DNA from: Stentor roeselii
Lineage: Eukaryota; Ciliophora; Heterotrichea; Heterotrichida; Stentoridae
NCBI GenBank assembly: GCA_006503475.1
Contig: RSEH01000275.1
Location: forward strand, 1 to 61,349
Length of the DNA stretch: 61,349 bases
Direction: 5' to 3'
Shown: piece by piece, positions 23,656-58,537 of the stretch
How the letters are laid out: each line of letters opens with the position of its first letter
How positions within the stretch are numbered: position 1 is the stretch's first letter
Position numbers and translations under genes: made by a program
Notes under the pieces: generated by a model
What the model saw: only the letters and a program-made list of their open reading frames with translations
Databases searched by the model: none
What the model was told of the DNA's origin: nothing

Positions 23656-24405
23656 ATGGACGTATCACCTAGCAAAGAGAGAATCAAGCAGTTGTCCGAA
23701 CGTTTTCTCAACCTCCAGTCGGGCGTCGAAGATGAAAAAAACACTCGAGCAGAACATTTTGAGTCTTACCTTCGGAACTTCGACCATAAAATAGATGCGA
23801 CCAGCTCCTCGTTCGAGTCCAAGTTCCGACTGGCCAAAGAAACTCTGGCCAAACTGAATGAAAATCTCAACAATGAACGCACAGCTCGAGAAATTTTGGA
23901 TGAAAAGAAGTCAAAAGAACTGAAAGTCGCTGAAAACAACCTAAATATCGAGTTGAATCTCCTAAAACAGTCTCGAAAAGAATATGAAATCAGAGTCAAT
24001 AAAGTACTTGATGAGAAACTTTTCAATTTGAAACTTGAGCTTGCAAAAGAAAAGAAAGTAAGAGAAGAAGTGAGCGAGATGCAGAGTCAGCACCTAGACG
24101 ACAACCTAAACAGCTTAACAGCAACAGTCGAAAACGAGAGTTCAAACCGAGAAGAAAGCGCAGAGAAGTTAAACCAGCACATCCAAGAAGAGTTCAGCAA
24201 GTTCGAAGACGAGCTGTTCGCAAACAAGAAAGACCGAGACGAGACAAACGACTCAATGGTGAAGATCATTGAAGACATGCAGAACCGTCTCTTCCTCGAA
24301 ATAACAACCGAGCGTCAAATCCGTCAAAGAACCGAAGAAACCCTTTTAAAGCTTCTAGAAGAGACCTGCAACCGAGTAGAAAACAGTCTAAGAACGGCAT
24401 TTTAA
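23656..24405 (+). CDS. SF-assemblin (striated fibre protein)
   Basis: 249 residues, near the family length. SF-assemblins build the striated fibres attached to basal bodies. The protein has the usual short non-helical head with MDVSPSKERIKQLSERF, then LNLQSGVEDEKNTRAEHFE, and an almost uninterrupted segmented coiled coil to the end. Recurrent charged signatures are ERTAREILDEK, KKVREEVSE, SSNREESAEK and ERQIRQRTEETLLKLLE. It ends 14 bp before the stop of the convergent gene at 24420. In a ciliate the expected place is kinetodesmal or other basal-body fibres. No intron is needed. Confidence 0.93.
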   Translation: MDVSPSKERIKQLSERFLNLQSGVEDEKNTRAEHFESYLRNFDHKIDATSSSFESKFRLAKETLAKLNENLNNERTAREILDEKKSKELKVAENNLNIELNLLKQSRKEYEIRVNKVLDEKLFNLKLELAKEKKVREEVSEMQSQHLDDNLNSLTATVENESSNREESAEKLNQHIQEEFSKFEDELFANKKDRDETNDSMVKIIEDMQNRLFLEITTERQIRQRTEETLLKLLEETCNRVENSLRTAF

Positions 24406-24419
24406 CTAAATAGGCTCAT

Positions 24420-24779
24420 TTAGTCCCTATGTATATCTTTTTTGATCTTTCTCGATAGTCTCGACGAGTCGACTTTAATTTTCTGGGAATCCTTTTCCAT
24501 TACTTTCCTTTCAATCAACTTCTGAATAGCTGCACGGCTGATGTTTTCTGATTTATGCAAAAGGTCTTCCTTATGAATTGGTTTGATATCGTTTTTGCGA
24601 GTCGTGAAAGTGATCGGGTGGGTCAAGTTATCATCGCAGAGAAGTTTTTCGTCGATTTTTATCTCGTCCTCGTCAGGTACCGTGTTTTGGTGAATAATCA
24701 ACACTGACGTCCGATGTGGCTTCGCTTTGTCGAAGTTCATTTCCATGGCTTGAGCAACTGAAGACTCGATGCAGCCCAT
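24420..24779 (-). CDS. Small protein with predicted N-myristoyl/palmitoyl signal (MGCIESS)
   Basis: 119 residues, no recognised domain. The N-terminus MGCIESSVAQ fits an N-myristoylation site (Gly2, Ser6), with Cys3 as a likely palmitoylation site, so membrane attachment is expected. The rest is charged, with a helical basic C-terminus (LIERKVMEKDSQK, SRLSRKIKKD). Its ATG lies only 5 bp after the stop of the upstream same-strand RING gene, so it may be co-transcribed with it. Its stop is 14 bp from the SF-assemblin stop on the other strand. Confidence 0.75.
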   Translation of the reverse strand: MGCIESSVAQAMEMNFDKAKPHRTSVLIIHQNTVPDEDEIKIDEKLLCDDNLTHPITFTTRKNDIKPIHKEDLLHKSENISRAAIQKLIERKVMEKDSQKIKVDSSRLSRKIKKDIHRD

Positions 24780-24784
24780 TTTTA

Positions 24785-26824
24785 TTAAATATCTACTGCT
24801 TTTGAGATAAGCACACCGAATAAAGGACTTGAAAGTGATGCTGAAATAACTTCAGGAGTTTTTTTTACTTTTAACAGTTCCAAGTCGGGAAGCTTTAACC
24901 TGGAAAAGGCTTTTGTTGTGAAATAATGACCTGGATTCATTTCTATGATGAACTCGTGAAGGACATGGTTGGACTCAAGGTAGATCAATGAAGGAAATTC
25001 GAGATTTCTTGCTTTATTTGAAAAATCTTCGACTTTTTGAAGATTTTCTGTTGTTTTTAAAGGAAAACTGCAGAAAGTGTTGAAAATTTCAGAAGAAATG
25101 CAAGAATTGTCTGATAAAAGAAGTTTTTGATAAGTGATTCTTGATGGTGGCACTGACAGTGGGTGGAAAGGAGGCTTGTAAGGCACGTAGCAGTACCCAA
25201 GGATCAGTCCTTTGCAGAGCAGGTCTATATCGCACTTGAATCTGAGGACTACCTTAAAACTCTTCTCAGATTTAAACAAATTTCTCGCTCCTAAGTTACT
25301 ACAAGACGAAGAAGCGAAAAAATAAAAAGGTCTCGTCGCTATTGAAGTGCATTGTGACCGCAAGGACTCAACAAGGCAAAAAGCTTTAAAAATCTCAGAT
25401 AATCTCCTAACCCCCATATTTGAAATCAGTTTCAATGCTTTGTTTTCTAGTTTTCTATTTGAAACGTCGTCGTATTGAAGCATCTGAAGTCGATCTGATA
25501 TCAGGTCTTCTATCGGCTTCACTGATAAATCGTGAATGCCGAACAAATTACCTTTCATTTCTAAACACTTCTCGCATTGCAGGGCGAAAGGGCGACTACC
25601 GATATTTGTGATGGGCAAATTGTGTATCAAGCACTTTATCTTGAGAAAGTCTAAAAGACTTCGGGCATAAGAACTTTCTTTGATTTTTTCCTTCCATTTT
25701 CGGCAGTCGAAACCACATTCATAACAGGTTTGAAGATTTAGGTGGTCTTGACAGGAGTAGTGGAAACAAGGAAGACGCCAAATGGGTTGATCGTTGAACT
25801 CATGGGTTGCATGGCAAGTTGGAATTGTTAAGTATTTCCAGCTGTAGTATTGGGAATAATTCAATTCTCTTCGGTCAAGTGGGCATTCACGACAATGACC
25901 ACTGGAGAGACACTTATAGCAAATGACGTGATCGCATTCTAGGATAATGCCTCGGCTAGAGCCGAGGCTGATTTTATTGCAGCACTCGACGCATCTTACA
26001 TCTTTGAATTGATCTTCAGATAAAAGACTTCTGCCCTCTAAGACCAGCAAAGCCAGATCTCTTGGACTTGACAGGGTAATACTGCGCTTTAAAACCTGTA
26101 TCATAAACTGATTAAGACACCTTGCATCTACTTGATTGGCCTTTTGTCTTAAAACATCAACCACAGCAGAAACTGTATCTTTCACAGAAGACAGCGAAAG
26201 ACAACCCTGGCCAGAAGAACAACGTCTACAAAGTCCTTCAAGATTCAAATTAATCGACTCAGCCTTAATATTCTTATGTTCCCTGCAGAAAAGTCCAGAA
26301 TCCACCTGTGACAACCACCGACAATCTTCTAAAAGTTCTCGAGTCGATTTGGAAATCAACAGTTTTAAACGATCCTTACATAAAAAGTCACTGTTTCGCG
26401 ATAGCAGCTCGAAAAATGCCTTTTCAACATCTGAATAGCTAAGAAGAGCAGGTCTTTCACGAGGTTCACAAAGACCGATGCAGTTTCTACATAGTGGGAT
26501 AAAAGAATCTATTAAAAAGTGTGTTGATTCTGAATCATCATTTGAACAAGGCACCAGGTAGAAGTTCTTAACAGAATTGACTATTTTAACTGCCAGGTCT
26601 TCACATTCCTCATTAAAACAAATACACTTTAAAGTCTGTTTCTGGTAACATTCTCTACAAAACGTTAAAAAGCCCTGGACCTGGTCCTCTATTCGAGAAA
26701 GGCAAAAATTTGACCTGCTTTGAGAAGGGTCAGTCTTCAGTTCCCTTCTGCACTTGGAACACTGAAGCCTTGACCTTGACTTTTCTTCATCATTTCGAAG
26801 GGTGGGTACAACAATTAAAGACAT
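24785..26824 (-). CDS. D8-type RING protein, tandem paralogue A
   Basis: 679 residues, probably an E3 ubiquitin ligase. An N-terminal zinc module (CSKC at 22-25, CREC at 56-59) is followed by CRNC (112-115) and a FC-x2-H/LC-x2-C pair (180-202). The RING uses C278, C281, C297, H299, C302, C305, C314 and D317. The last ligand is Asp in CPLD, as in RBX1. Next comes a module shared by all five paralogues: CHATHEF, LPCFHYSCQDH, CYECGF. A later CLIH/CEKC pair is B-box-like. The final 180 residues are beta-rich (FKVVLRFKCDIDLLCKGLILG, GHYFTTKAFSRLKL) and loosely resemble a PHR sandwich. That last comparison is inference. It diverges from the 26873 gene over 48 bp. Confidence 0.8.
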   Translation of the reverse strand: MSLIVVPTLRNDEEKSRSRLQCSKCRRELKTDPSQSRSNFCLSRIEDQVQGFLTFCRECYQKQTLKCICFNEECEDLAVKIVNSVKNFYLVPCSNDDSESTHFLIDSFIPLCRNCIGLCEPRERPALLSYSDVEKAFFELLSRNSDFLCKDRLKLLISKSTRELLEDCRWLSQVDSGLFCREHKNIKAESINLNLEGLCRRCSSGQGCLSLSSVKDTVSAVVDVLRQKANQVDARCLNQFMIQVLKRSITLSSPRDLALLVLEGRSLLSEDQFKDVRCVECCNKISLGSSRGIILECDHVICYKCLSSGHCRECPLDRRELNYSQYYSWKYLTIPTCHATHEFNDQPIWRLPCFHYSCQDHLNLQTCYECGFDCRKWKEKIKESSYARSLLDFLKIKCLIHNLPITNIGSRPFALQCEKCLEMKGNLFGIHDLSVKPIEDLISDRLQMLQYDDVSNRKLENKALKLISNMGVRRLSEIFKAFCLVESLRSQCTSIATRPFYFFASSSCSNLGARNLFKSEKSFKVVLRFKCDIDLLCKGLILGYCYVPYKPPFHPLSVPPSRITYQKLLLSDNSCISSEIFNTFCSFPLKTTENLQKVEDFSNKARNLEFPSLIYLESNHVLHEFIIEMNPGHYFTTKAFSRLKLPDLELLKVKKTPEVISASLSSPLFGVLISKAVDI
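25949..25968. repeat. Perfect hairpin inside RING of paralogue A
   Basis: GCCTCGGCT, two-base loop AG, AGCCGAGGC: a 9-bp perfect stem. It encodes the loop between RING cysteines 2 and 3 without changing its length relative to the paralogues. Confidence 0.85.
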
Positions 26825-26872
26825 GTTTATAACTTTCTAAAATAATTCTCTCTGAATCTCTAAATAATCTAC
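26825..26872. promoter_or_regulatory. 48-bp divergent intergenic region
   Basis: The ATG codons of the RING A gene (minus) and the 26873 gene (plus) are 48 bp apart. Any promoters and both 5' UTRs must fit here or reach into coding sequence. TTATAAAC precedes the minus-strand ATG. Confidence 0.4.
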
Positions 26873-27922
26873 ATGGCAGATGACCGAAAACAACTCGAAA
26901 TCACTCAAGACTTCCTGGAAAAACACAGAAGTAACACTAGAAAATACATGCATCTTCTTTCAAAACCCAACGAAAAACCAACAAGCATTCAAGAAACCCT
27001 CACAAGAATCGAGTCTAAGTTCGGACTCAGCATAAAACGATCAAATTCTTCAGAAGTCCCTCAAATTCCTAGTATTCCTGAAAAAACTACGGAAAACGAC
27101 TCGATTCAAGACTTTATCAAGCAAATACGTGCAAAGTACCTCGCTTCAAATGACTCTGGACAAGAGTCGCTTTTGAAGCCAGATGAAAAAAAGGAAGATG
27201 AGACTTTAGAACTGAGAAGAAATAAAAGTGAAGTCATTCCTGAAATTTTAGGCCTTGAGGCGAGTTTTCCAGAAGAGAAAAAATCGACAGTTGTTCAAGT
27301 AGAGTCCTTTTCTCTTAGCGAAAAAAGTGAAAAAAGGGTAAATTTAGAGAAATCTGTTCAAAAAACAAGAAAATCTGAAAAATCATTTGAAAAAGTTAAT
27401 TTTTTCCATGAAAAACGTGAAGAAAATTTTGAAAAATTAGGGAAAAGTGAGCAGTTGACAATTGAAGATAATGCTTTGCTGTTGAGTGACTTGATCTCAG
27501 AGGTTCCTTCAGTCCATTCTCCTCTCAGTCGCCCTCCAAGGTCAAAAGTCTCTGAAGAAGGACACGAAGAGCACTGCAAAGAAGACATAAATCGAAGTCT
27601 TCACGAAAATTCAATGAGCATGTCTTTTCGAAGGGTCCATACAGAGCAACTCCTAAACTCCGCCATCAGCGAAGTGATCACATCACGCTTAGGCATCAGA
27701 AAAAAGCCTCAAAGTAACCCAGGAGTCTTTTCTTTTGAATCTTTTCTGAATGCGGGAAAGTTAAAATTCGCTCCTTTGAAAAAAGTCGTCAATTTTGACC
27801 TGGTTTTCAAAAATGATGAAATTTTGAAAGGATTGATGATGAGAAAGGAAAAAGTTTTAAAGGAACTTGAAAGACTTGAAGATGAAAAAGTAAAAGTTTT
27901 GGAATTAATGAATAAGGTTTAA
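26873..27922 (+). CDS. Uncharacterised Ser/Glu/Lys-rich protein inserted in the RING array
   Basis: 349 residues with no recognised domain. It is strongly charged and Ser-rich (KSEKSFEKVNFFHEKREE) with a predicted helical C-terminus (FKNDEILKGLMMRKEKVLKE) likely to form a coiled coil. Two short IQ-like or amphipathic helices are suggested at ETLTRIESKFGLSI and SIQDFIKQIRAKYLA, which repeat a similar pattern. It lies on the opposite strand to the RING genes around it. Its start is 48 bp from RING A and its stop is 6 bp from the stop of RING B, so it splits the array. Function unknown. Confidence 0.75.
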   Translation: MADDRKQLEITQDFLEKHRSNTRKYMHLLSKPNEKPTSIQETLTRIESKFGLSIKRSNSSEVPQIPSIPEKTTENDSIQDFIKQIRAKYLASNDSGQESLLKPDEKKEDETLELRRNKSEVIPEILGLEASFPEEKKSTVVQVESFSLSEKSEKRVNLEKSVQKTRKSEKSFEKVNFFHEKREENFEKLGKSEQLTIEDNALLLSDLISEVPSVHSPLSRPPRSKVSEEGHEEHCKEDINRSLHENSMSMSFRRVHTEQLLNSAISEVITSRLGIRKKPQSNPGVFSFESFLNAGKLKFAPLKKVVNFDLVFKNDEILKGLMMRKEKVLKELERLEDEKVKVLELMNKV

Positions 27923-27928
27923 TGGTTT

Positions 27929-30031
27929 TTAGAGGATTTCTTCTGTTGTGAGAAGATGGTTTACTGGCGTTAGAGATATTCCGAGGACTGGACTGGAGAT
28001 CATCGCGTTTAAAGCGCCGGATTTTTTAGGTGGAAGAGTCCATTCAATGAAGTCATTCTTGAACCTGGTGAAAGCTTTTGAGTAGTAATAAAACCCTTCC
28101 TTTAAAACCACCCAAAATTCAAACCTTGCTCGTTCCGCATTTAAATAAATCAAATGCTCGAATTCACAGAGATATAAAATTTCACAGTTTTTTTCCATGA
28201 TTTTTTCGATTGTTTCTAGTCCTTCAACGTGTTTAACTGGAGATACTTTGAACTGGTTAAATTTTTTTTCAATAATTTGGACTTCATTGCCAAATCTGTC
28301 AAGTTCTATTGTTTTCTGAAGGATTTCAAATGGACTGGAAAAGTAAAGATTTTCTGAAGAATACGGCAGATAACAAGCAGAAATAATAAAACCTTTCAAC
28401 AAAACGTCTTTTTTCACTGAAAAACTCAAAACGACTTTAGTGTTATTCACGAATTTCACTGCTTTCGTCGACCAGTAAAACTTAGGGTAAAAACTTCTGA
28501 AAAAAAGAAAGTTTTTCCAGCTGGTACTTGAAAAAACCTCTTGAATTGCGTCTAGCACAAGACAAGTCTTGTGCTGGAGATTTAGTGTCATCAAGTTAAA
28601 ATAAGAAATCGACTTCAAAAAGGTATTGCAGTAAAAAATATCTTTAAAGTAACGCAAACCTCTTCCTGGGGCTTTTTGAGTCTCAACTTGAATCCGATCC
28701 TCAAAACTCTTCCTAAAAATTCCCAAACACGCCATTTCTTTCCCTTCAATAAAAAAAGTCTTCTCACCTTCACAATCCTCACAAAGCAGTTCAAAAGGCT
28801 GCATTTGAAAAAATTTAACTTTTTTTCGATGTTTCTGACAATTTACCTGAAAAAACTTTAAAAACCCTTCAATTTTTTCACTTCTTTTTGTACTCCAAGG
28901 CCACAAATCAACTGAAAATCCGCATTGAAAACAGCAAAAGCCTTTTAAGTGATTCAAGCACGAGTAATGAAAACAAGGAAGTTTCCAGACTTCAGGTCCT
29001 TGAAGGTCATGTCCGAAGTGGCATTGAGCATTGAATTCTTGAGTTCTTTTAAAGAACTTCTCGTAAACTAGAGGCTCGCTGTCCAGGATGCAGCGTCCAG
29101 AGTAGTCTTGATTAAGACACTTGAAGCATATTAAGTGCCCACATTTAAGTTCTATTAAAATTCCTTGCGCAAGGCTTGCCTTGCGCAGACAAAACACACA
29201 ACGGGCCAGGGGGTACTCGAAACCAATGAGAAAGTCTTGGACTTCTAGGATCAGAAGGTTTAAAGTTGAAGAAGAGTCGATTTTTATTAGTTTGGGCAAG
29301 TGAAGCACTTGAAGGATGAACTTGTTTAGGCTTAGAGGATTGAAGGATTTGTGTATTGCTCGAAGTGACTCGATTATTGTGCTTGATGATGCTTCTTGAT
29401 AGGATAAGTCGATTAGTGAGCGAGACTCGGGTGAGTGACTTGAACAGATTGAACATAAAGGACGGAGTTGCTTGTCTAGCATTGATGCTCGGGACTTCGG
29501 GTGGAATTGGCAGAAGACTCCGTTTTGCAATTGGTCTAACCATCGGCAGGATGAGAGTAAAGAGGACAGAGAGTGTGATATTAAACGCTTTATTCGATCG
29601 GAACTTAGAATTGAAGAATTTTTTTTAAGTAAATTGAAAAATAATGATTCTACTGTGGAATAGTTCAGTTCAACTGATTTGGTTTGGGTTATGTCACACT
29701 CGAAATTTTTGCATATTGGTAATAATGAGATTAAATCGATTGATTTCGCTGGAAGTGAGCTGTGTTCGAAACAGCTTACATCATAAAAAAAGTAAACCTT
29801 TCTCCTATTCTCATCATTTTCTTCAATAAACCTTCCCTGATCTCCACTTTCTTCAATCTCATCTTTACACTCTTGACACACAATATTAAATCCTTGCAAA
29901 TCTCTATCAAATCCCTCAGACTGATACTGAAACAAAACAAAAGACTTAGAAAACTCCTGACAACGCTTACAAGAAACAATTTTTTTCAATGAAGTCTCTT
30001 GTTGCCTAAGTAAAGGATGAGTTCTCATCAT
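27929..30031 (-). CDS. D8-type RING protein, tandem paralogue B
   Basis: 700 residues, collinear with paralogue A over its length. N-terminal zinc pairs are CKRC (21-24) and CQEC (52-55). GVFCQFH/LCSIC lies at about 171-196. The RING is C278, C281, C297, H299, C302, C305, C314 and D317, the same numbering as in A, with CILD as the terminal Cys-x-x-Asp. The shared second module reads CHFGHDL, LPCFHYSCLNH, CFQCGF. The beta-rich C-terminus has KVVLSFSVKKDVLLKGFII and EGFYYYSKAFTRFK. Probable E3 ligase. Two perfect 10-bp hairpins lie in this gene. The ATG follows the RING C stop by 13 bp, with TTATAAT in the spacer. Confidence 0.8.
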   Translation of the reverse strand: MMRTHPLLRQQETSLKKIVSCKRCQEFSKSFVLFQYQSEGFDRDLQGFNIVCQECKDEIEESGDQGRFIEENDENRRKVYFFYDVSCFEHSSLPAKSIDLISLLPICKNFECDITQTKSVELNYSTVESLFFNLLKKNSSILSSDRIKRLISHSLSSLLSSCRWLDQLQNGVFCQFHPKSRASMLDKQLRPLCSICSSHSPESRSLIDLSYQEASSSTIIESLRAIHKSFNPLSLNKFILQVLHLPKLIKIDSSSTLNLLILEVQDFLIGFEYPLARCVFCLRKASLAQGILIELKCGHLICFKCLNQDYSGRCILDSEPLVYEKFFKRTQEFNAQCHFGHDLQGPEVWKLPCFHYSCLNHLKGFCCFQCGFSVDLWPWSTKRSEKIEGFLKFFQVNCQKHRKKVKFFQMQPFELLCEDCEGEKTFFIEGKEMACLGIFRKSFEDRIQVETQKAPGRGLRYFKDIFYCNTFLKSISYFNLMTLNLQHKTCLVLDAIQEVFSSTSWKNFLFFRSFYPKFYWSTKAVKFVNNTKVVLSFSVKKDVLLKGFIISACYLPYSSENLYFSSPFEILQKTIELDRFGNEVQIIEKKFNQFKVSPVKHVEGLETIEKIMEKNCEILYLCEFEHLIYLNAERARFEFWVVLKEGFYYYSKAFTRFKNDFIEWTLPPKKSGALNAMISSPVLGISLTPVNHLLTTEEIL
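28554..28575. repeat. Perfect hairpin in RING paralogue B (C-terminal part)
   Basis: AGCACAAGAC, loop AA, GTCTTGTGCT: a 10-bp perfect stem in frame in the coding sequence. Confidence 0.85.
29166..29187. repeat. Perfect hairpin inside RING of paralogue B
   Basis: TGCGCAAGGC, loop TT, GCCTTGCGCA: a 10-bp perfect stem at the same position in the RING as the hairpin of paralogue A, but with unrelated sequence. Confidence 0.85.
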
Positions 30032-30044
30032 TATTCTATTATAA

Positions 30045-31934
30045 TTAATCTCCTACAAGCATACTAAAATCAAAAAGACCCAGTCCAACGATGGGTCCCG
30101 CAAAAGACAACTTTTTCGAAGTCTGTCTTATTTTTCCAAACTTAATCTCCGAGAAGTATTTTTCTTTGTTTCGAGAAAAAGGAACTCCATGAAAATATCT
30201 CCCTTTATTCACCTTGACAGTGATTTCATACCTGTTCTTATCAGTCATATAAAGTGACTTACTCAAGATATAAACTCGAGAATTTTTCAACAATTTCGAA
30301 TTATCTGAGTTTAACTCAGAAACTTCACAATAAGCCAAAAGTCTCACAACTGACAAGACAGTCCCATCTTCCTTTTTCACAGCTTTAACCTCGACTTCAT
30401 CTAGGACAACAGGCAAGTTAAACACTGGAAGTGCGATAAACTGATCTGCAATGATCAAACTCGTAAGAATCAAGTCATTCCTCGGCACCAAGTGAATGTA
30501 AAATTCAGTCATTTCCTCTAAAATCAACTCCCTTGAAGAATCTGAGAGACTCGGGTAAAGTTTATTAAAAAACTTTAAAAAAACATTAGAATCAACTTGA
30601 TGATTCCCTTGAAAACTTCTAACAAGAGCTAAAAATAACTGACGGCTTTTCATAGAGACGATTCCTAAACAAACTGCAAGTTTTAGAAGGTTTTCTTGAT
30701 AAAGATTAGAAAAAATTGAAAGATTTTGCCATTGTTCAGGGCATAGAGCATGGTAGTAAATTTTTTGCATTAAAAAATTATCAAATTTCTTGTTTTCTGA
30801 GATTTCAAATGAAACTTTTTCATTTGAGATGCAGGAGTTGCATTGAAGTTCAAGAGGAAATAACTGAACTTTCGTCACTTTTAAGCTGTGCCTGGGGCAA
30901 ACGAATGACGTGAAATTCAGAAAATTTTCAATTTTTTTTGAATTTTTAAAAGATTTCGGGAAATTTATCAGAAAAAATCCGCATTTTTCGCAGAATTCTG
31001 AAGATTCATGAATTTTGCATGAATAATGAAAGCAGGGCAGGCGAGTGATGATTTTTTCTTCTGAAATTAGATGGTTTTGATGACATTCGTAACCAGGGCT
31101 GAATTGGTGCATTTCACAGTTGTTGTAAATAATTTTTTTATAGTCGATTGGACAATTTTCTGCGTATTCTGAGTTGATACAAGAAAAGCACATCGTATGG
31201 CCACATTGAAGTTCAACAGGAAGTTTATTCCCGACACTAGTGGTTCTACTGCAAGCGACACATCGTTTTTTCTTTAACTTTTCGCTGCCTGCAGCGAAAA
31301 AATCTTTCGTTTCCATTAAATAAAGAATCAAAGTGTCCTTATCCTTGGGAATCTCCTGTCTTCTAATAGCTCCTTTTTCAATCATGAACCTATTCAAGTT
31401 TTTTTCAGTCTTTACCTTGGTTTTAATGAAATCCATTAAAAAAACTCCTGTTTTTTCAATATTTCTCAGATCTTTAAATTCATTTTTTTGTTCAGTCCTG
31501 TTGAAGCACTCTTCACAAAACACTTCTAAACCACTATCAATAAAAAAACCCTCAGTCCAAGGATGATTAAAGCAAGAAGGTCCATTAAACAAAGCACAAA
31601 GCCATCTACAACTTTCTAACAATTCTTGAAAATCTTCTGAAATTAACCTCCTGATTCGATCAGAGTCAATTTTTTCTTGAAATTTTTGAAGTAAACAGAA
31701 AAACTCTCTTTCAATATCTTTATAAATAAGTAACTTCACATTCAACTCAGAAGGAATGAAGCAAAGTTTGCAAATTGGTGTGAAAGAAAAGGGAATATAA
31801 CGAGATGCCTGTTCATTTGGATGAAACTTGCAAAGAACTCTTAAAAAAATTGACTGTTCTTGTGAAAGATGAGATTCAGGTGCTGGGTATGTTTGATTCA
31901 AGGCTTCTTGCCTCAATTTACAAATGCCGTTCAT
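30045..31934 (-). CDS. D8-type RING protein, tandem paralogue C (short N-terminus)
   Basis: 629 residues. It lacks the N-terminal paired-Cys zinc module of the other four and begins near CKFH/CKLC (35-58). CFNH and CEEC lie at 121-143. The RING is C225, C228, C244, H246, C249, C252, C261 and D264 (CPID). The second module reads CHQNHLI, LPCFHYSCKIH, CEKCGF, followed by CPRH/CNSC. The C-terminal beta region has LVPRNDLILTSLIIADQF and KGRYFHGVPFSRNKEKY. Probable E3 ligase. It starts 10 bp after the stop of paralogue D with TTATAA exactly in that spacer. Confidence 0.8.
   Translation of the reverse strand: MNGICKLRQEALNQTYPAPESHLSQEQSIFLRVLCKFHPNEQASRYIPFSFTPICKLCFIPSELNVKLLIYKDIEREFFCLLQKFQEKIDSDRIRRLISEDFQELLESCRWLCALFNGPSCFNHPWTEGFFIDSGLEVFCEECFNRTEQKNEFKDLRNIEKTGVFLMDFIKTKVKTEKNLNRFMIEKGAIRRQEIPKDKDTLILYLMETKDFFAAGSEKLKKKRCVACSRTTSVGNKLPVELQCGHTMCFSCINSEYAENCPIDYKKIIYNNCEMHQFSPGYECHQNHLISEEKIITRLPCFHYSCKIHESSEFCEKCGFFLINFPKSFKNSKKIENFLNFTSFVCPRHSLKVTKVQLFPLELQCNSCISNEKVSFEISENKKFDNFLMQKIYYHALCPEQWQNLSIFSNLYQENLLKLAVCLGIVSMKSRQLFLALVRSFQGNHQVDSNVFLKFFNKLYPSLSDSSRELILEEMTEFYIHLVPRNDLILTSLIIADQFIALPVFNLPVVLDEVEVKAVKKEDGTVLSVVRLLAYCEVSELNSDNSKLLKNSRVYILSKSLYMTDKNRYEITVKVNKGRYFHGVPFSRNKEKYFSEIKFGKIRQTSKKLSFAGPIVGLGLFDFSMLVGD
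31279..31300. repeat. Perfect hairpin in RING paralogue C
   Basis: TTTTCGCTGC, loop CT, GCAGCGAAAA: a 10-bp perfect stem, encoding the FFAAGSEK stretch about ten residues before the RING. Confidence 0.85.
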
Positions 31935-31944
31935 TTATAAGAAA

Positions 31945-33963
31945 TTAACCTGCTAAAAATTCATTTATTTCTACTGCGCAAATCCCTGAAAACACTCCAC
32001 CTTGACATGCCTGCAACACCCTCGACACTCCAATGATTTTTCCTTTAAACTTCTCAAGTCCTGCAAGTTGAAATGCCAGTCTTTCAAAAGCCTTCGAAGT
32101 CTTCACCTGCAGTCCAGGTTCAAGTCGATAGATAAAAACATAAACCAGTCCTGAAGAAGCATAAACCGGTTGATGTAAAGCGAAAACTTTTCCATCTTTT
32201 AAACTTGTCACCACTGGTCTTTCATCGAATCCACTTTCAAGAATTTCTTCTTCTTTAGAGAAAACTCGAAGTTCAACTGATTTTATTAAAAGTCGGAAAA
32301 GTGTTTTTCTTGATTTGAAAAAACTTAAGTTAAAAATACTTCCAGTCAAGATAAAGTCGACTTTTGGTGATAGTGACAGGACTAAGGCTGTCGGATCTTC
32401 TATGCTGAAGTCTTTGAAGTTTTCTTGGGGCTTGAATAGTTCGAAGGACTTATAAGGAAACCTTGCGTAATGCATTAAAGGGTCTTGGTTAAGGATTCGA
32501 GAACAGAGAATGTATTTCAAAAGTTGCTGTAAACTTATTATTCCAAGGTATTGAGAAAGTTTTAAAAAAGTTAATCCTGGAATTGAAAGCTTTTTGAATG
32601 ACTTTGAAGTTGAACGGGAAAGTTTTGATGGGTTTAGATGGCTTTTTATTATCTTGTGCAGAAGAGATGTCGTGAAAGATACTTTAGAAAGATTTATCTC
32701 GTGAATAGAAGAGGAATTTTCGCGGATTTCGCAAAATTCACAGTAAAAAAAATGGGTTTTTAAGGAAAATTTTGAGATTGGTTGTTGGTGAAACAAGCAG
32801 GTGAGAGTTGTGAAATTTATCAAGTTTGATGTTTTAGAGGAGAGCTTTGAAGGGAATTTTGATGATTTCAGGTTGAAGCCGCATTGAAGGCACGTTGAGG
32901 ACTTGCTGTGGTCTTCGCAGGAGTAGTGGAAACATGGAAGTTTTAATATTGGAGATTTTGGATTGAGTTCATGAATGAAGTGACATTGAGGGATTTCTAG
33001 ATTGCTTGGGGATAAATACTCGATTGGGTCCACAGGCTGATTATCAATCAAACAATTTTTCACATTATTAACTTTATAGCAACTGAAGCACAAAAGATGT
33101 CCACAACTTAAAATAATTCCTTTCCTCATGCCAACCAGAAGATTTCCAAGACACCCGACACACCTTTTACAATCCTTCCTAAAATTTTTTAAATCAACCA
33201 CCTCCAACAACAAAATATTTCTCAGTTCATTATTTTTAAAATTGATTCTCTCATTAATCCAGCAAAATTCAATTAAAAACTTGCTGAGTCTATTTGAAAA
33301 TTCAGAGTTTTCCTTAATTTTTTCTTTAATAAACCTTTTTAAGTTCAAAAAATCATTTTGAATACTAAAACCATTCAAATTTTCACAATTTTCACACAAA
33401 GGTGTAAAATTTTCACTGAAAAAAGTCGCTATTTTTGCATGATTAACACAAAAAATTCCTGATTTGACCTGCATCATCCATCGAGTCTGAATGATTAGAT
33501 CACTGAGAGACCTGGTCATGACCCTTCTCTTCTGATCATTATTTAACATAGAAAAAAGACTATTGTAAAGGTCAAAGTAAGTATTTTCAATAGTGCAGTA
33601 GTCAATCTTTTCCAGTTCTGACTTGTGAAAAGGTTTCAAGCAGTCCGAACATAAAGGTCTGAAAGTCATTTTATGCAAAGTATCAGCTGCTGAATCCTTA
33701 TGTTCAAAGCAAGTCACTGAAAAAAATGATGAAAGAATTTCAAGTTTTTTTGAAGGCAAGTCGCAAGACTTGCTGCAGACTTCACAGGTCGGGACATGAG
33801 ATGAACAGAAAAGTTTTACAGGTTGTTTTGGTTCCAAAAGCAAGCAATCCGAACACCTGTCTTCATGTCCTTCAAACGACCTGAGCTTCGCTTTACATTG
33901 AAAGCATTCTAAAGAGTCAAGATAAGAATGTCCTTCTTTTCGAAGTTTTCCAAGTCCAGCCAT
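31945..33963 (-). CDS. D8-type RING protein, tandem paralogue D
   Basis: 672 residues. The N-terminal zinc module is CFQC (20-23) with CSDC (37-40), then CSSH and CEVC. CSDC is at 105-108 and FCVNH/LCENC at 172-193. The RING is C268, C271, C287, H289, C292, C295, C304 and D307 (CLID). The second module reads CHFIHEL, LPCFHYSCEDH, CLQCGF, then CLFH/CEFC. The C-terminal part has SLSPKVDFILTGSIFNLSFF and PGLQVKTSKAFERLAF. Probable E3 ligase. It starts 8 bp after the stop of paralogue E. An imperfect hairpin lies at 33756-33773. Confidence 0.8.
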   Translation of the reverse strand: MAGLGKLRKEGHSYLDSLECFQCKAKLRSFEGHEDRCSDCLLLEPKQPVKLFCSSHVPTCEVCSKSCDLPSKKLEILSSFFSVTCFEHKDSAADTLHKMTFRPLCSDCLKPFHKSELEKIDYCTIENTYFDLYNSLFSMLNNDQKRRVMTRSLSDLIIQTRWMMQVKSGIFCVNHAKIATFFSENFTPLCENCENLNGFSIQNDFLNLKRFIKEKIKENSEFSNRLSKFLIEFCWINERINFKNNELRNILLLEVVDLKNFRKDCKRCVGCLGNLLVGMRKGIILSCGHLLCFSCYKVNNVKNCLIDNQPVDPIEYLSPSNLEIPQCHFIHELNPKSPILKLPCFHYSCEDHSKSSTCLQCGFNLKSSKFPSKLSSKTSNLINFTTLTCLFHQQPISKFSLKTHFFYCEFCEIRENSSSIHEINLSKVSFTTSLLHKIIKSHLNPSKLSRSTSKSFKKLSIPGLTFLKLSQYLGIISLQQLLKYILCSRILNQDPLMHYARFPYKSFELFKPQENFKDFSIEDPTALVLSLSPKVDFILTGSIFNLSFFKSRKTLFRLLIKSVELRVFSKEEEILESGFDERPVVTSLKDGKVFALHQPVYASSGLVYVFIYRLEPGLQVKTSKAFERLAFQLAGLEKFKGKIIGVSRVLQACQGGVFSGICAVEINEFLAG
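33756..33773. repeat. Hairpin in RING paralogue D
   Basis: GCAAGTC, GCAA, GACTTGC: a 7-bp stem. The flanks suggest an eroded longer version of the type seen in the sister genes. Confidence 0.6.
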
Positions 33964-33971
33964 AATTTAAT

Positions 33972-35993
33972 TTAATCTGTTCTCTGAAGAATTTTCCTAA
34001 CAACTCCGAATTCAAGTCCATAAACATATCCTCCAAATCGAGCATCTAGAACAGTGACCTCGCTTTCATCATAACTTTTCAAAGGTTTCTCAAGTTGAAT
34101 AAAACTTTTTTGTCTGTAAAAAATTTTAGTCATTATCCAATAAAGTTCCTCTTCGAACTCAAAACAAAATTCTAAAAGATTTGACTCTTTTGCATAAATT
34201 TCTGTGGAAAATTTAATTGCAATCATTTCATCGTTACTTTCAGTTTTCCACGATTCAAAGTAAAAATTTACTTCAATGTTATCGATTTCCTTTTGTTCTT
34301 TGTTAAAAACAACGAGTTTTATTCGTTTCGGGATGTTATGAACGGGCCCTGGACTGTCAAATATCAGTGCAGGAGAAAGAGTAAAAAATCCTGTCAAAAT
34401 CACGTCTTCACCTGGTCTTAAAGCAAGAATCACTCTGACTTTACCTTCAAAAATCCTGAACTTCTGAAAGTGGTACTTAGGAAGTTTTGGTTTATGTATA
34501 AAAAACTTCTCAACTTCACAAAAAGTACGAAATTGACTAGGGTACTTCCCCAAAACCTTTAAAATCTGAAGCAAAGACAGTTGTTTTTGCATTGAAATGA
34601 CTGAAAAGTACTTGTAAGACTTCAAAACAACGGTGCTCAATTCAGCCTGTTGGTCATACTTTGGATGAAGAAACTCTAAGACTTTGTTTAAAACCCGATG
34701 AATGAAATTCACATTAATTTCGATGACCCCGTCATATTTTCCGTTATTTATTGAAACTTGTAGTTTGCAGTCTTCACATCCAAAGCTTTCCAGATGATAA
34801 GAGTAAAATTTTGCTTGTTTTTTATGAAGTCTGCATTCAAGGTAAACGAATTTCAGCAAGTCAGTGAAAGTCTCTGAGGACTTTCCTTGTATATTCCAGA
34901 AAGAGTGAAAAAAGCCGCATTTCATGCAATAGTCAAGTTTTCGATGGTCGATACAAGTGAGATGTCCACAAGGTTGTTTAAAGACTTCAGATTTTCCTTT
35001 TATTTTATGGTAAAAGTGACACCATAACTCAGGAAGATCGAGAGGTTGAACATTGACAACTGATATCTGGGACTTATCAATACAACAGTACAAATCTATG
35101 TTTAACGAGCAGGTAAAACAGACTAAATGACTACATTTCATGATGTAACCTCTTCTTCCTCCAACAAGGATTTTCTTCAAACAGGCCACACAACGCAAAG
35201 GACCTGGTCTTGCCTTTTGAGTTAAATTTTCATATTCCAGAAGAAGAAAATTGTTAAAGTTTCCCTTTTTCTGAGGACTTGGCCAGTCTTTAAATAACTT
35301 CAATAAAAACTTATTCAAAAAACGATTTTCTGCTGTTTTCGCTGTTTCAAAGACTTTTGATATTATCTCAGAATCTGATGTTTTCAGGTATTTTTTTGAG
35401 ACCTGTTTGCATTTCTCGCAGTAACAACTGAGAAGGTTGTCGTTTAAGTCGATGAACTTCGCTGGTCTTTCTTGATGTTTGATGCAACTTGGGCCGATTT
35501 CGAGTCTTGTGAGCCAGTTCAGAGCTTTTAACATCCCTGAAAGACTTTCAGTTACCAAAAAAGTCTTTTGTTCCCTGCTGAGAAGATGAAAATATTTGTT
35601 GATGAGGTCTTTGAATAAATTTTCAAGGCTTTTGTAGTCAAGTTGTTTTAATTTAGAGATTTTATTTATTTCTTTGCAGTCTTTGCAGATTGGGATGAAA
35701 TAAGGCTCCAGGTAATGAGAACATTTTTTTAGGTGCTTTGGGCAGGAGACTATGAAGAAAGACTTTAAAATTGGAGAGAAAGTATTTGGAAGAGGATTAA
35801 GTTTGTTGCAGTTTTTGCAGTTTTCTGGCTTGCATGAGGAACAAAATTTTTTTAGGTTGGGTATGTTAGGAGATATACAAGAGTCGCAAAAATCACTGAA
35901 AAACTCGAAGGTTTGGGTAAGTGACTGGGAGCAAGTCGCACATATCAACAATGAGAGATAATCATCAGTTCGTAGTCGAGAAATCCCAAGCAT
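33972..35993 (-). CDS. D8-type RING protein, tandem paralogue E
   Basis: 673 residues, first in transcription order. N-terminal zinc pairs are CATC (18-21) and CDSC (36-39), then CSSC and CKNC. CKDC is at 103-106 and CIKH/CEKC at 170-195. The RING is C268, C271, C287, H289, C292, C295, C303 and D306 (CCID). The second module has changed to CHFYHKI, QPCGHLTCIDH, CMKCGF, the most diverged of the five. The C-terminal beta region has KVRVILALRPGEDVILTGFF and ELYWIMTKIFYRQKSF. Probable E3 ligase. It diverges from the 36227 gene across 233 bp, so a promoter for the downstream array may lie there. Confidence 0.8.
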   Translation of the reverse strand: MLGISRLRTDDYLSLLICATCSQSLTQTFEFFSDFCDSCISPNIPNLKKFCSSCKPENCKNCNKLNPLPNTFSPILKSFFIVSCPKHLKKCSHYLEPYFIPICKDCKEINKISKLKQLDYKSLENLFKDLINKYFHLLSREQKTFLVTESLSGMLKALNWLTRLEIGPSCIKHQERPAKFIDLNDNLLSCYCEKCKQVSKKYLKTSDSEIISKVFETAKTAENRFLNKFLLKLFKDWPSPQKKGNFNNFLLLEYENLTQKARPGPLRCVACLKKILVGGRRGYIMKCSHLVCFTCSLNIDLYCCIDKSQISVVNVQPLDLPELWCHFYHKIKGKSEVFKQPCGHLTCIDHRKLDYCMKCGFFHSFWNIQGKSSETFTDLLKFVYLECRLHKKQAKFYSYHLESFGCEDCKLQVSINNGKYDGVIEINVNFIHRVLNKVLEFLHPKYDQQAELSTVVLKSYKYFSVISMQKQLSLLQILKVLGKYPSQFRTFCEVEKFFIHKPKLPKYHFQKFRIFEGKVRVILALRPGEDVILTGFFTLSPALIFDSPGPVHNIPKRIKLVVFNKEQKEIDNIEVNFYFESWKTESNDEMIAIKFSTEIYAKESNLLEFCFEFEEELYWIMTKIFYRQKSFIQLEKPLKSYDESEVTVLDARFGGYVYGLEFGVVRKILQRTD

Positions 35994-36226: not shown

Positions 36227-37297
36227 ATGATTCATTTCCTCATAGAAGTGCTTTCAGACTTTATCCCAAATGATTTTTTACCTTTCAAAAATTCAATTAT
36301 TCTCATCAACGAATCTTGTTACATTTCTGAAGATCAATCAAAAAAATTCAGAGGCATTAGCAATTTGGAAAATTTACCAAAATCTGATTATTTTTATATG
36401 AGAATCGTTTCCGACCTCCACAAAGGATTAATTATTGGAAAAATTTTGAACAAGTTCAAAATCACCTGTTTTTTCACAATTTCAGTTGAAAAATACTCAT
36501 CAATTATTCCGAATAAACAAATAATTCAATTCCCAGGTTTAAGTCAAACAGGACCATCATTGCAAGTCACTAATACTGGAGACTGTAACCCGAAAAAGCT
36601 GAAATTAACAAAAAAACCTTATGACCTAGAAGAAGTTTATCAAAATATCGAATATTTTCCATCACAAAGCAAAAAATTCCATCAGAAGTCTAAAAGGAAC
36701 TATTCTGACCTAAACCACAATCAAAAAAATTCTGAATTAAGACAAGATCCTTCAATAAAAAACTTTTCAAGGCCTTTCAAATCAAAAAATCCTCCAAACT
36801 GCGAAGCTCGACCCCCTCATCATTGCAAAGAAATTCGAGAAAAGCCCCCAGAAGTCATAAGGTTTATTTTCAATCAAGAAAAAGAACAGCTCGAAAAAAC
36901 CCAACACCCGAAAAATCAGGTCGTTCCTCAAGTTTCACCTCAAATAACTCTTCAAGATTCACCTCAAGTCCTTCCACAAAAAACTCTTCAAGATTCACCT
37001 CAAGTCCTTCCACAAAAAACTCTTCAAGTTCCAGAACAAAAAAATTCTGAGTATTTTCAGCTTCTCCAACTGGTAAAAAATGCAGAAATCGAGAAATGTT
37101 TTACTTTTTTTGAAGTCTTCTCAGCCCTTTTTTCACACTTTTTCAGAGAAACTGGGAAAAAAAGCCATGAAAAAGTGGAAAAATGCATTTTAAAGATGTT
37201 TGAATTCAACATCTTGTCATTGACCTGTCCTGACCGAAGTCCTTACAAAGACTTCAAGAGTTACTCAATGAAAGACAAAATTAAAGTAAAATTATAG
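36227..37297 (+). CDS. Uncharacterised protein with 12-residue repeats
   Basis: 356 residues, no recognised family. Residues 1-100 look ordered (IEVLSDFIPNDFLPF, FYMRIVSDLHKGLIIGKI). The middle is basic and Asn/Gln/Pro-rich, ending in a 12-residue tandem repeat (SPQVLPQKTLQD, about 2.3 copies). The last 80 residues form a helical, possibly winged-helix-like block (KCFTFFEVFSALFSHFF, KVEKCILKMFEFNIL). Its stop is 19 bp before the next gene on the same strand. It diverges from RING E. Function unknown. Confidence 0.75.
   Translation: MIHFLIEVLSDFIPNDFLPFKNSIILINESCYISEDQSKKFRGISNLENLPKSDYFYMRIVSDLHKGLIIGKILNKFKITCFFTISVEKYSSIIPNKQIIQFPGLSQTGPSLQVTNTGDCNPKKLKLTKKPYDLEEVYQNIEYFPSQSKKFHQKSKRNYSDLNHNQKNSELRQDPSIKNFSRPFKSKNPPNCEARPPHHCKEIREKPPEVIRFIFNQEKEQLEKTQHPKNQVVPQVSPQITLQDSPQVLPQKTLQDSPQVLPQKTLQVPEQKNSEYFQLLQLVKNAEIEKCFTFFEVFSALFSHFFRETGKKSHEKVEKCILKMFEFNILSLTCPDRSPYKDFKSYSMKDKIKVKL
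36946..37028 (+). repeat. 36-bp in-frame tandem repeat
   Basis: Two full copies and a partial third of a 36-bp unit starting AACTCTTCAAGATTCACCTC, at 36946, 36982 and 37018. Each encodes 12 residues, so copy number can change without a frameshift. Confidence 0.9.
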
Positions 37298-37316: not shown

Positions 37317-38348
37317 ATGTCAGGAAAGAAATCAGGGAACCCAACAATAGATACTCAAAATACAGTGATTTCTTATCTTATAGATATAATCAGTCACAGC
37401 TATCAAAATCGTCATCCTATAATGAAACCCGAAGTAGAGAAATGGTTAGAATCGACCTTAGCAGGGCTAAACAACGCTGACATAAACATGAGGTTCCAAA
37501 ATCTCACAACTTTAACCAAATGTCACAAGTGTCTATTAAATCTTTCGAACTACCGACTGAACTGCAGCCATCTTATCTGTGAGTCTTGTTTACAGCAGTC
37601 ATTAGATGTACTTAAGCAGAATTTAATCGAGACGTCTTATTCTTACCCTTGCCCAGTATGTTCTTACAGTCATTCATTAAAAGAGATAGAAAATCTTACT
37701 CCAACTTTATCAGAACAAATATCATCATCATTAAAAACTTATAAAACCACAAGAGTTAAAAAAAACATTGATTTAGTTTGTTCAACTTGCAAATATCAAT
37801 TAAATAAAAGTTACTTTCCTCAGCCACCTCCCTGTGCACATCATAATTGCTGCAAAGAGTGCTTAGCTACTTCTTACACCCAAGGGAAATACGAGTGTCA
37901 ACACTGTGGAAAAAAGGAAAAGTTCAAAAGTGACCCAACAAGGGACAAAGGCGTCTGTAATGGATGTTTCCAGGAAGTTTACTATATCGGAGACTGTTTA
38001 ACACGTGCCTGTCAAGACCATTTCCATTGTTATGAATGTTTGAAGTTCGATCTCGATTATTTAAAATGCAAAACATGTTCCAGTTCTTTAACAGAAGAAA
38101 GACTTAATCATATTAGACGAAAAACAAGTAAAATTTGCTCAAATTGCAATAATACTTATCTTTACTGTCTTTTCGTGAATAAGTCTTGTTGTTCATTTCC
38201 TATTTGTGCATTTTGCCAGGCGAACATTGACAACAACTTCATGATTTGCAAGGGATGCAATAACAACTTCCTTGATCCTGCGTCGATAGAGCTGGTATTA
38301 GAAGTGCAAGCCTCAGCAGAAGATTTATCACACGTTAAGTCTAGTTAA
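37317..38348 (+). CDS. Multi-zinc protein with N-terminal C3HC4 RING
   Basis: 343 residues. A classical RING uses C69, C72, C83, H85, C88, C91, C112 and C115 (KCHKCLLNL, LNCSHLICESC, PCPVC). Further Cys pairs continue to the end: CSTC, CAHHNCCKEC, CQHC, CNGC, CQDHFHCYEC, CKTC, CSNC, CCSFPICAFC, CKGC. The whole protein thus appears as three or more consecutive zinc modules, a layout that recalls RBR or TRIAD ligases. The canonical RBR RING2 Cys is not assignable by eye. Probable E3 ligase, not a close relative of the five tandem RING genes. It follows the 36227 gene by 19 bp. Confidence 0.75.
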   Translation: MSGKKSGNPTIDTQNTVISYLIDIISHSYQNRHPIMKPEVEKWLESTLAGLNNADINMRFQNLTTLTKCHKCLLNLSNYRLNCSHLICESCLQQSLDVLKQNLIETSYSYPCPVCSYSHSLKEIENLTPTLSEQISSSLKTYKTTRVKKNIDLVCSTCKYQLNKSYFPQPPPCAHHNCCKECLATSYTQGKYECQHCGKKEKFKSDPTRDKGVCNGCFQEVYYIGDCLTRACQDHFHCYECLKFDLDYLKCKTCSSSLTEERLNHIRRKTSKICSNCNNTYLYCLFVNKSCCSFPICAFCQANIDNNFMICKGCNNNFLDPASIELVLEVQASAEDLSHVKSS

Positions 38349-38371: not shown

Positions 38372-39163
38372 ATGGGCTGTAGCAACTGTAAAGCTGAAAA
38401 AGAACTGTCGCCTGAAGAAAAAGTCTTAAAAGCCTTTGAGTTGTCTTTGAACTTCAGTCAATTAGATACTATTCATATGGATCGAGTGCTTCATCGGTAC
38501 TCGTTCAATGGAGGAATGTCGATTTCACAACTTGAAAGAGCCTTTGGAGAGCTTAACTTGAAATTTTGTGATTTCTCGGATTTCTGGTATAAGTTTTATG
38601 ATTCTTATTCGTATAATATGAAAAGAATCAATTGTTTAGGAATTTTACTTGCGAATGAACCTGCTAGTAAGAAATTAAAGATTTTGTTTCAAAATTATGA
38701 TATTAATACGGTTGGATTTCTTTCGAGGGAACAGTTAAATTGTATGATTGATGATTTGATGGTGGTTGCTTGTGAAATTATTCCTAAAGGAGCTTTGAAG
38801 TACCAGGGCAGCTCAATTAATCTGAAGAACTACGCCCGTAACATCAAAAGTGTACGAAAGTCAATCATCAGACAACTCGTTTCATCTGTTATGGAGAGCA
38901 GGACAAGTATAAACGAAAGACAATTTAATTTAAGTTACCAACAAGACGAAGGTATCAGAAACTTACTTGATTCTCGAGCAATGAGAGAATATTGCCACTC
39001 GGTTAAAACGAATTTAATTGGCTCAGTTGATAACATTTTGAGCCAAATAAACGAAAAGAACAAAGACCAGATAATCAACATAATAAATCGAAATTCAGAA
39101 AAAAAATCAATTAGAAGAAGAACTTCAAATGTTTACAGAGAGGTGGGAGAAATTATTAATTAA
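38372..39163 (+). CDS. Acylated EF-hand-like protein (MGCSNCK), paralogue of the 46137 gene
   Basis: 263 residues. MGCSNCK is a likely N-myristoylation plus palmitoylation signal. The fold resembles neuronal calcium sensor or calcineurin-B type proteins: AFELSLNFSQLDTIHMDRVL, then ISQLERAFGELNL, then FQNYDINTVGFLSREQL. That last loop (D110, N112, V114, G115, Q121) lacks the usual acidic residues at positions 5 and 12, so Ca2+ binding is doubtful. The C-terminal 100 residues are basic and helical. The 46137 gene product is clearly homologous over its first 200 residues and keeps a better loop. The stop is only 7 bp from the convergent stop at 39171. Confidence 0.75.
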   Translation: MGCSNCKAEKELSPEEKVLKAFELSLNFSQLDTIHMDRVLHRYSFNGGMSISQLERAFGELNLKFCDFSDFWYKFYDSYSYNMKRINCLGILLANEPASKKLKILFQNYDINTVGFLSREQLNCMIDDLMVVACEIIPKGALKYQGSSINLKNYARNIKSVRKSIIRQLVSSVMESRTSINERQFNLSYQQDEGIRNLLDSRAMREYCHSVKTNLIGSVDNILSQINEKNKDQIINIINRNSEKKSIRRRTSNVYREVGEIIN

Positions 39164-44401: not shown

Positions 44402-46136
44402 GATAATTCATGATACGTAAGCACTCTTAATCAAATTTTATTTCCCAAATTCATCAGTTGAAATAGTGCCTTGATCTTTAAATTTTTTTCAAATAGTAAT
44501 CTTAGCTATCTCGTTAAAATTTAGAAACTTTATTCTAATAGCTGAAGCACTAAATCAAGTCAGCTCACCTGATATCTAGTATCAATCTCCGATTATTTAA
44601 TTAGACTTATAAAATAGAAATATGTGATTTTTTAATCAAGGTTAATTAAGTGCATATCTAGGATAAATCATCTTAACAGAACATCAGCCAGTATTATGTT
44701 TAAGTTTTACAAAAAGTGAGTTTGGATTAGAAATTTTAGCTTTCTGACTAACCAAACCTATTAAAATATATTCAGTTTTGCAGGCAGATACTTGAAAGAA
44801 TCCACCCAGTACTGACTAATTTCAACCTAATTTTTTTATCCAGAAAATTATCTCAATATCAAAACAGATTTAGATAGAAAACCAAAGACCAAATCTTGGA
44901 TGAAGATTCCGGCTTATAAATTCAAATCAATTCATTCAAGATGAAAACTATAAACCCAAAAAGGCCTAATATCCTAATCAGCAGCTAATCGAAACATAAA
45001 AATTATTATTAATTTAATTGAAAACTTAACTTATGTCTTTAATTGAACACTAAGCTACTAGATACCCAAATTTATATTGAAAGTAAAGAGCTTTATTATT
45101 ATTTCTAGTTAAAGTGGATTTCAGATCATTCACAATCCTTAATACTATTTACTTGAAAAAATAGATTTCCAAATAAAATTCCAATTAATTGGTATTCAAA
45201 AAGAAATACTGGAGTATCATTTTAGTACTAGTCCATAAATTTTCATGTAATAAGATCTTTAATGATAAACAAAGAATTAATGAAATTCATGTTAATCATG
45301 AAATTATGAAATTAGGTAATCTAGAAACTTCGAAGGTCTTTTACTGATTCTGTTAATTAATAAGCCAAACCACTTACTTATCTAAAAAATTTATACTTTT
45401 TTTAATAAATATGTAACTAAAAATATTAACTTAACAAAAGATAAGAGTTTAGATTATTCCAAATTTTACAGAAATATTAAAATTAAAATGTATCATGATA
45501 TTAACTGAAATAGTTTCACTATTATTTAAAACTTTCGAGCATTTAACTCTGCTACATTTTTCAAATAATACTTATAAACCTCAAAGCAACTCATTAAATT
45601 CATATTAAAATACTAAAAAAACTCTTCATCGGGTCTTATAAACTTCTAATATCGCGAAGTATAAATTCTAAGATAGATTACTTTAACAAAATCCGAACCA
45701 ATGCTGTAAGTTTCTCGCGAAACAAGGGAACTACAAGAATCTTGGCCATATTTCTCAAAAAAACCGAAAATTTTCCAATTAGAGAGTCTTCTCCTAAAAA
45801 AAATCTAGAGTTATGAGTAGTTCTTCTTAAAATGATTTCTTTAAACCTCTTGAAATTAATAGCTATATCATTATAAACAACTTAAGTTCTTTGAACTTCC
45901 ACCAAACAGTTTCTTTGAATTTCTATGTAAAATTTGTTGATTTCGTGACATGGTTTTGCTGAAGCCATGAAAGTCCTCTATAGAAAAAAAATCTACCTAA
46001 TCTGATGAAGTCTTTCTCATATCAGTCATTATCAGAATTTATTGGTATAAAATTTTAGTGTAAGAAAAGTGAAAAGAAGTCCGAATATCTTTAAAATTTA
46101 ATCGAAAGATAAGGATAAACGACTCTAATTAAACTA
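44402..46136. other. Non-coding AT-rich stretch
   Basis: About 1.7 kb between the convergent copine and EF-hand genes. No gene, RNA or repeat was seen. Confidence 0.55.
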
Positions 46137-58519: not shown

Positions 58520-58537
58520 TTTAGATTAGTTACAATA

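Follow-up and report, generated by a model that had tools for sequence, protein, structure and literature searches.

Polycistronic operons, as known from kinetoplastids and nematodes, have short same-strand spacers between their genes. For ciliates, no report of nuclear operons was found in the titles and abstract openings of the part of the literature surveyed. Among heterotrich ciliates, Blepharisma stoltei is described as having a gene-dense genome of 66% AT, with introns of 15–16 nt and with short intergenic regions and UTRs (PMC9942806), and heterotrich 3′ UTRs are given medians of 21–23 nt, some Condylostoma transcripts having no 3′ UTR at all (PMC4967479). Features of compact heterotrich genomes such as those of B. 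stoltei and Condylostoma magnum are found here as well: AT-richness, gene density, tiny introns, short intergenic regions and the telomere repeat. Outside ciliates, transcripts that begin inside a neighbouring gene or extend into one are described for the microsporidia Encephalitozoon cuniculi and Antonospora locustae (PMC3629993); the compactness is alike, but theirs are reduced parasite genomes, whereas the genome treated here is a large ciliate genome. It differs from the kinetoplastid and nematode operon systems in showing no strand bias and no detectable tandem-specific compaction, and in having opposite-strand pairs that are equally tight.

The window analysed is the whole of one contig (C202, 61,349 bp, 33.5% GC) from an assembly of 44.4 Mb in 522 contigs, and it fits an extremely compact, somatic genome of heterotrich type. 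The telomere repeat CCCTAACA gives 547 exact, overlapping three-repeat matches in the assembly, as compared to 0 for the reversed control. We predicted genes ab initio with our own gene finder, a 3-periodic Markov model that permits tiny introns and in which start codons are the ATGs picked by coding score. Applied to the window and 20 other 10-kb stretches (261 kb of the 44.4 Mb), it yielded 165 genes and 144 neighbour pairs. Counted over 116 genes, in-frame TGA occurs 9 times (e.g. in 46134–46949) and TGG 484 times, and four of the nine TGA codons lie in the final 2% of their ORF; because of this scarcity and this position, UGA may be a rare stop, a rare Trp codon being the alternative. The meaning of TGA does not touch the genes of interest below, whose reading frames stay open in the standard code and terminate at TAA.

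The initial annotation had described positions 24420–35993 as an operon-like series of five tandem RING paralogues with spacings of 8, 10, 13 and 5 bp. Sequence and ORFs bear out all four spacings (Table 1), and the five proteins are indeed paralogous, but they are not contiguous: a plus-strand gene splits B from A, and the real layout is an E-D-C-B array plus a separate A–MGC pair. The ORF of this intervening gene has a coding score of +110 in its own frame, as compared to −119 to +14 in the other five frames; its stop lies 6 bp from the stop of B and its start 48 bp from the start of A, and a search of the genome with its protein gave no further match. Each of the four spacers is preceded by TAA and followed by ATG. 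The gene finder's model starts B at the second of two adjacent ATGs, by which the C–B spacer becomes 16 bp. On the flanks, the MGC gene lies 14 bp from a convergent gene (23656–24405), and E is separated by 233 bp from a divergent gene (36227–37297).

Table 1. Features of the array region (positions in the window) and divergent start codons 5–15 bp apart (positions in the stretch named).
Feature	Position	Strand	Description	Basis
Paralogue E	33972..35993	−	673 aa; RING + PHR-like protein; heads array	ORF, family alignment
Spacer E–D	33964..33971	−	8 bp, ATTAAATT	
Paralogue D	31945..33963	−	672 aa	ORF; AlphaFold model, predicted C-terminal PHR-like domain at residues 497–666
Spacer D–C	31935..31944	−	10 bp, TTTCTTATAA	
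Paralogue C	30045..31934	−	629 aa	ORF, family alignment
Spacer C–B	30032..30044	−	13 bp, TTATAATAGAATA	
Paralogue B	27929..30031	−	700 aa	ORF; AlphaFold model, predicted PHR-like domain at residues 501–690
Intervening gene between B and A	26873..27922	+	349 aa; breaks array	ORF, coding score
Paralogue A	24785..26824	−	679 aa	ORF, family alignment
Spacer A–MGC	24780..24784	−	5 bp, TAAAA	
MGC protein	24420..24779	−	119 aa, begins MGC	ORF; C77 relative; spacing
Divergent starts, L015	4617/4633			
Divergent starts, L018	7647/7663			
Divergent starts, L020	5819/5825			
Divergent starts, L022	3521/3537			
Divergent starts, L028	8437/8445			

Similar spacing had been claimed for three other pairs in the window. 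It holds for the pair named TTC7/BAR (49754/49763, 8 bp) and for 53829/53850 (20 bp). The pair 58519/58538 may instead be one gene: a candidate 15-nt GT-AG intron, GTTAATTTAGATTAG, which would hold the apparent stop, joins the two frames, and this is the model that the gene finder prefers. The pair consists of the two ORFs of 56687–60358, of which the second encodes ankyrin repeats and a protein kinase.

The predicted start codons of the array genes are well supported. In the alignment of all five paralogues the initial M and the subsequent LR are invariant, and the next in-frame ATG lies 240 codons downstream in A, 166 in C and 98 in D; in B, the in-frame ATG that follows the two adjacent ones is 182 codons on. 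For the MGC protein, the alignment with a relative on contig C77 (35% identity) begins at residue 1.

Such narrow same-strand spacing could point to polycistronic transcription, with a promoter upstream of E and one mRNA for E-D-C-B (and similarly for A–MGC), read by reinitiation over 5–13 nt or processed internally. Besides the spacers of merely 5–13 bp, this would be favoured by the 233-bp gap upstream of the first gene, and by E-D-C-B being the sole run of three tandem spacers ≤20 bp, and thus the longest short-spacer run, in 261 kb, where the other runs comprise one or two. We nevertheless consider it improbable. Opposite-strand pairs are packed similarly. With the window included, spacers ≤13 bp separate the genes in 16 of 76 tandem as compared to 16 of 68 opposite-strand pairs (Fisher test for an excess among tandem pairs, p = 0.71), counts that barely shift when TGA is treated as a stop (18/80 and 15/69). 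Outside the window, the corresponding fractions are 12/62 for tandem, 12/28 for convergent and 2/25 for divergent pairs, and at ≤15 bp they are 14/62, 12/28 and 5/25. Nor are co-oriented neighbours in excess, at 76 of 144 pairs in the 261-kb sample (p = 0.56). The window alone, with the array counted in, has spacers ≤25 bp in 8 of 14 tandem as compared to 3 of 15 other pairs (p = 0.05). Each single short spacer of the array is ordinary for this genome. The tandem counts keep three further pairs ≤40 bp apart that have candidate introns of 15–16 nt, two on L020 and one on L025; on L020, the two short (≤13 bp) tandem cases may in fact each be one gene interrupted by a 16-nt intron.

A formal comparison comes from a transform test: if 3′ and 5′ flanks are independent, the tandem mean of exp(−d/s) is the geometric mean of the convergent and divergent means. 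Outside the window, the tandem value at s = 10 bp is 0.130 against a predicted 0.130 (with a 95% interval for the difference from −0.09 to +0.10), and at s = 20 bp it is 0.192 against 0.210 (95% interval about ±0.1). The intervals also cover zero when the window is added, when only longer genes are used and when TGA is taken as a stop. Tandem spacers are therefore not detectably shorter than independent flanks predict, although, with samples this small, the broad intervals leave room for a modest excess among tandem pairs. This test replaced a half-spacer simulation, whose outcome runs against separate transcripts (short tandem fraction predicted 0.084 and observed 0.194 outside the window, 0.061 and 0.211 with the window included); we rejected that simulation as a null because half a convergent spacer is not distributed like one flank.

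Further observations stand against one mRNA for the array. The opposite-strand gene between B and A leaves E-D-C-B alone unbroken, and three relatives elsewhere in the genome (on C502, C91 and C145) stand as single copies within the ∼1.5 kb viewed on either side. The four spacers all shift the frame, so that simple stop read-through would yield no fusion protein, and a polyprotein made in this way was rejected. The internal genes also have a normal start context: by a leave-one-out score, genes behind tandem spacers ≤16 bp average 1.00 (n = 16, 3 of them array genes), those with far neighbours 0.77 (n = 75), those of short divergent pairs 1.41 (n = 10) and internal ATGs −1.47 (n = 271). Genes behind short tandem spacers thus share the AT-rich start context of genes with far neighbours. 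An earlier score that was not leave-one-out does count against separate transcripts: genes behind spacers ≤23 bp, the array excluded, scored lower (mean 0.01, n = 24) than far-neighbour genes (1.47, n = 62, its own training set), yet above internal ATGs (−2.43, n = 834). With opposite-strand pairs equally tight, no excess of co-orientation and a plus-strand gene within the series, the operon-like reading finds no support here.

Importantly, the strongest control for the operon question is provided by divergent pairs whose start codons are 5–15 bp apart (Table 1), since genes read in opposite directions do not share one mRNA. Pfam matches above the cut-off were obtained on both sides for Kelch and Piwi/PAZ proteins (15 bp), for a PSMD8-like and a cNMP-binding protein (5 bp), and for an Arm-repeat protein and COP9 subunit 3 (CSN3; 7 bp). 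Another pair at 15 bp joins a Rab gene to one whose protein has no Pfam match, and in the last, also at 15 bp, the one partner searched is TBC-like and below the cut-off; altogether nine of the ten proteins were searched and eight matched, counting the TBC-like one. The Rab start is fixed because the gene has no second in-frame ATG, and the next in-frame ATG lies 52 codons in for CSN3, 65 for Kelch and 102 for Piwi. Conserved genes placed in this way imply that a working promoter either fits the space of 5–15 bp or sits in coding sequence. Among the 32 divergent pairs, window included, none is between 16 and 43 bp apart, a gap that might point to two classes of 5′ flank.

These pairs could also be accommodated in a mixed system, in which some ultra-short tandem pairs, E-D-C-B included, would be co-transcribed with reinitiation over 5–13 nt and the close divergent pairs would share a bidirectional initiator of 5–15 bp. 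If true, this would mean operons and minimal promoters together in a ciliate; we hold it to be highly improbable.

The initial annotation had also pointed to TTATAA in two of the spacers. The word is present in two of the four, as claimed (probability 0.011 by letter shuffling), but we rejected it as a special spacer signal, for it is enriched ahead of genes generally: it occurs ≤13 bp before the start in 12 of 127 other genes, as compared to a mean of 4.5 and a maximum of 11 in 200 shuffles, and TATAA directly abuts the ATG in 14 of the other genes. TTATAA looks like a general, mild start context.

We think it very likely that the region is typical of its extremely compact genome, that the array goes back to an ancient tandem duplication of a RING + PHR-like gene, and that each gene has its own mRNA. 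Each array gene would produce a short-ended mRNA; transcription would start either within the coding sequence of the neighbour or in the few AT-rich bases immediately upstream of the ATG, while polyadenylation would take place ∼0–25 nt past the stop, in the spacer or within the next gene. We infer these RNA end positions and the independence of the transcripts from the spacings, the similar packing in three orientations, the absence of a co-orientation excess, the out-of-frame spacers and the lack of a fusion intron (below). Because heterotrich 3′ UTRs are ultra-short and sometimes absent, hardly any spacer is required for the 3′ ends, and because divergent starts sit 5–15 bp apart, 5′ ends manage with few intergenic bases. 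Where the initial annotation saw no room for a 3′ end plus a promoter, a 3′ end could be accommodated in a spacer. Its second option, by which promoters or poly(A) sites lie inside neighbouring coding sequence, is consistent with the data, though no AT or TATA signal appears there: neither AT content nor TATA-like words are raised in the neighbouring coding ends of short tandem pairs (19 tails vs 86 others) or in the coding heads of short divergent pairs (10 vs 117 others). A minority of co-transcribed, read-through pairs is possible.

A special form of this explanation, and not exclusive of it, is that the transcripts are separate but usually overlap, beginning within the upstream gene or finishing within the downstream one; some molecules would then cover portions of two ORFs, with only one of these translated, as in microsporidia. 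The spacers are below the published median 3′ UTR of 21–23 nt, by which typical transcripts would enter the neighbour, and E. cuniculi offers a precedent in which initiation is described as often lying in upstream genes (PMC3629993). Overlap is not compulsory, however, given the Condylostoma transcripts described without any 3′ UTR (PMC4967479), and the missing promoter signal in neighbouring coding ends also speaks against it; we give this form a little less than an even chance. The apparent case for a ciliate operon is weakened and replaced by a sharper question, whether promoters lie within 5–15 bp or in coding sequence. The array itself is of modest overall interest, and follow-up would best be directed at the close divergent pairs.

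Tiny introns raise one further reading, that the array is a single long gene with the ORFs as its exons. Introns of 15 nt are the rule here (28 of the 33 predicted, and 30 of 33 at 15 or 16 nt, in a finder set to favour these lengths), and 58519/58538 may be such a case. Yet every paralogue has its own RING, C-terminal region and conserved start, and none of the four junctions has a frame-keeping GT-AG intron of 13–30 nt whose donor lies at most 24 nt ahead of the last base of the stop codon. For introns of such length and location we rejected this reading, to which we give practically no credence.

Regarding the proteins themselves, the five window members are true paralogues, with 23–30% identity to E and 57 invariant columns, and belong to a family of which we found at least eight members. 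Seven zinc ligands (C268, C271, C287, H289, C292, C295 and C304) are invariant in 8/8 members; at the position of the last ligand, 7/8 have D and 1/8 has C. The family profile matches RNF4 (E = 5e-6). The Pfam RING matches of the five window members all fall under the curated cut-off, and the best among all eight members has E = 1.2e-4. The proteins are divergent RING paralogues to which predicted structure assigns a C-terminal PHR-type domain, a region of ∼170 residues (modelled for D and B) that is predicted to adopt a beta-sandwich fold. Foldseek additionally returned matches to many unrelated beta-rich proteins, which had poor scores and were set aside. As compared to the PHR proteins (MYCBP2/Highwire/RPM-1) and BTBD2, the family members here are only ∼630–700 aa, and none of the eight has a Pfam PHR or RCC1-like match at E ≤ 1; moreover, in contrast to the PHR proteins, the PHR-like domain is C-terminal, behind several Cys/His modules. 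We thus report a small RING + PHR-like family whose predicted PHR-like part escapes Pfam. In a tree of the eight paralogues, D+E is the sole join with moderate support (89/92), and it is flagged as potentially due to long branches; the order of duplication is therefore not fixed.

Two observations concern other genes of the window. A plus-strand gene near the array (37317–38348) matches zf-RING_5 weakly, at E = 1.6e-4 and below the cut-off. Aside from the MGC protein at 24420–24779, a second window protein (38372–39163) also begins with MGC, a start that we take in both to be a possible N-terminal lipid-attachment signal.
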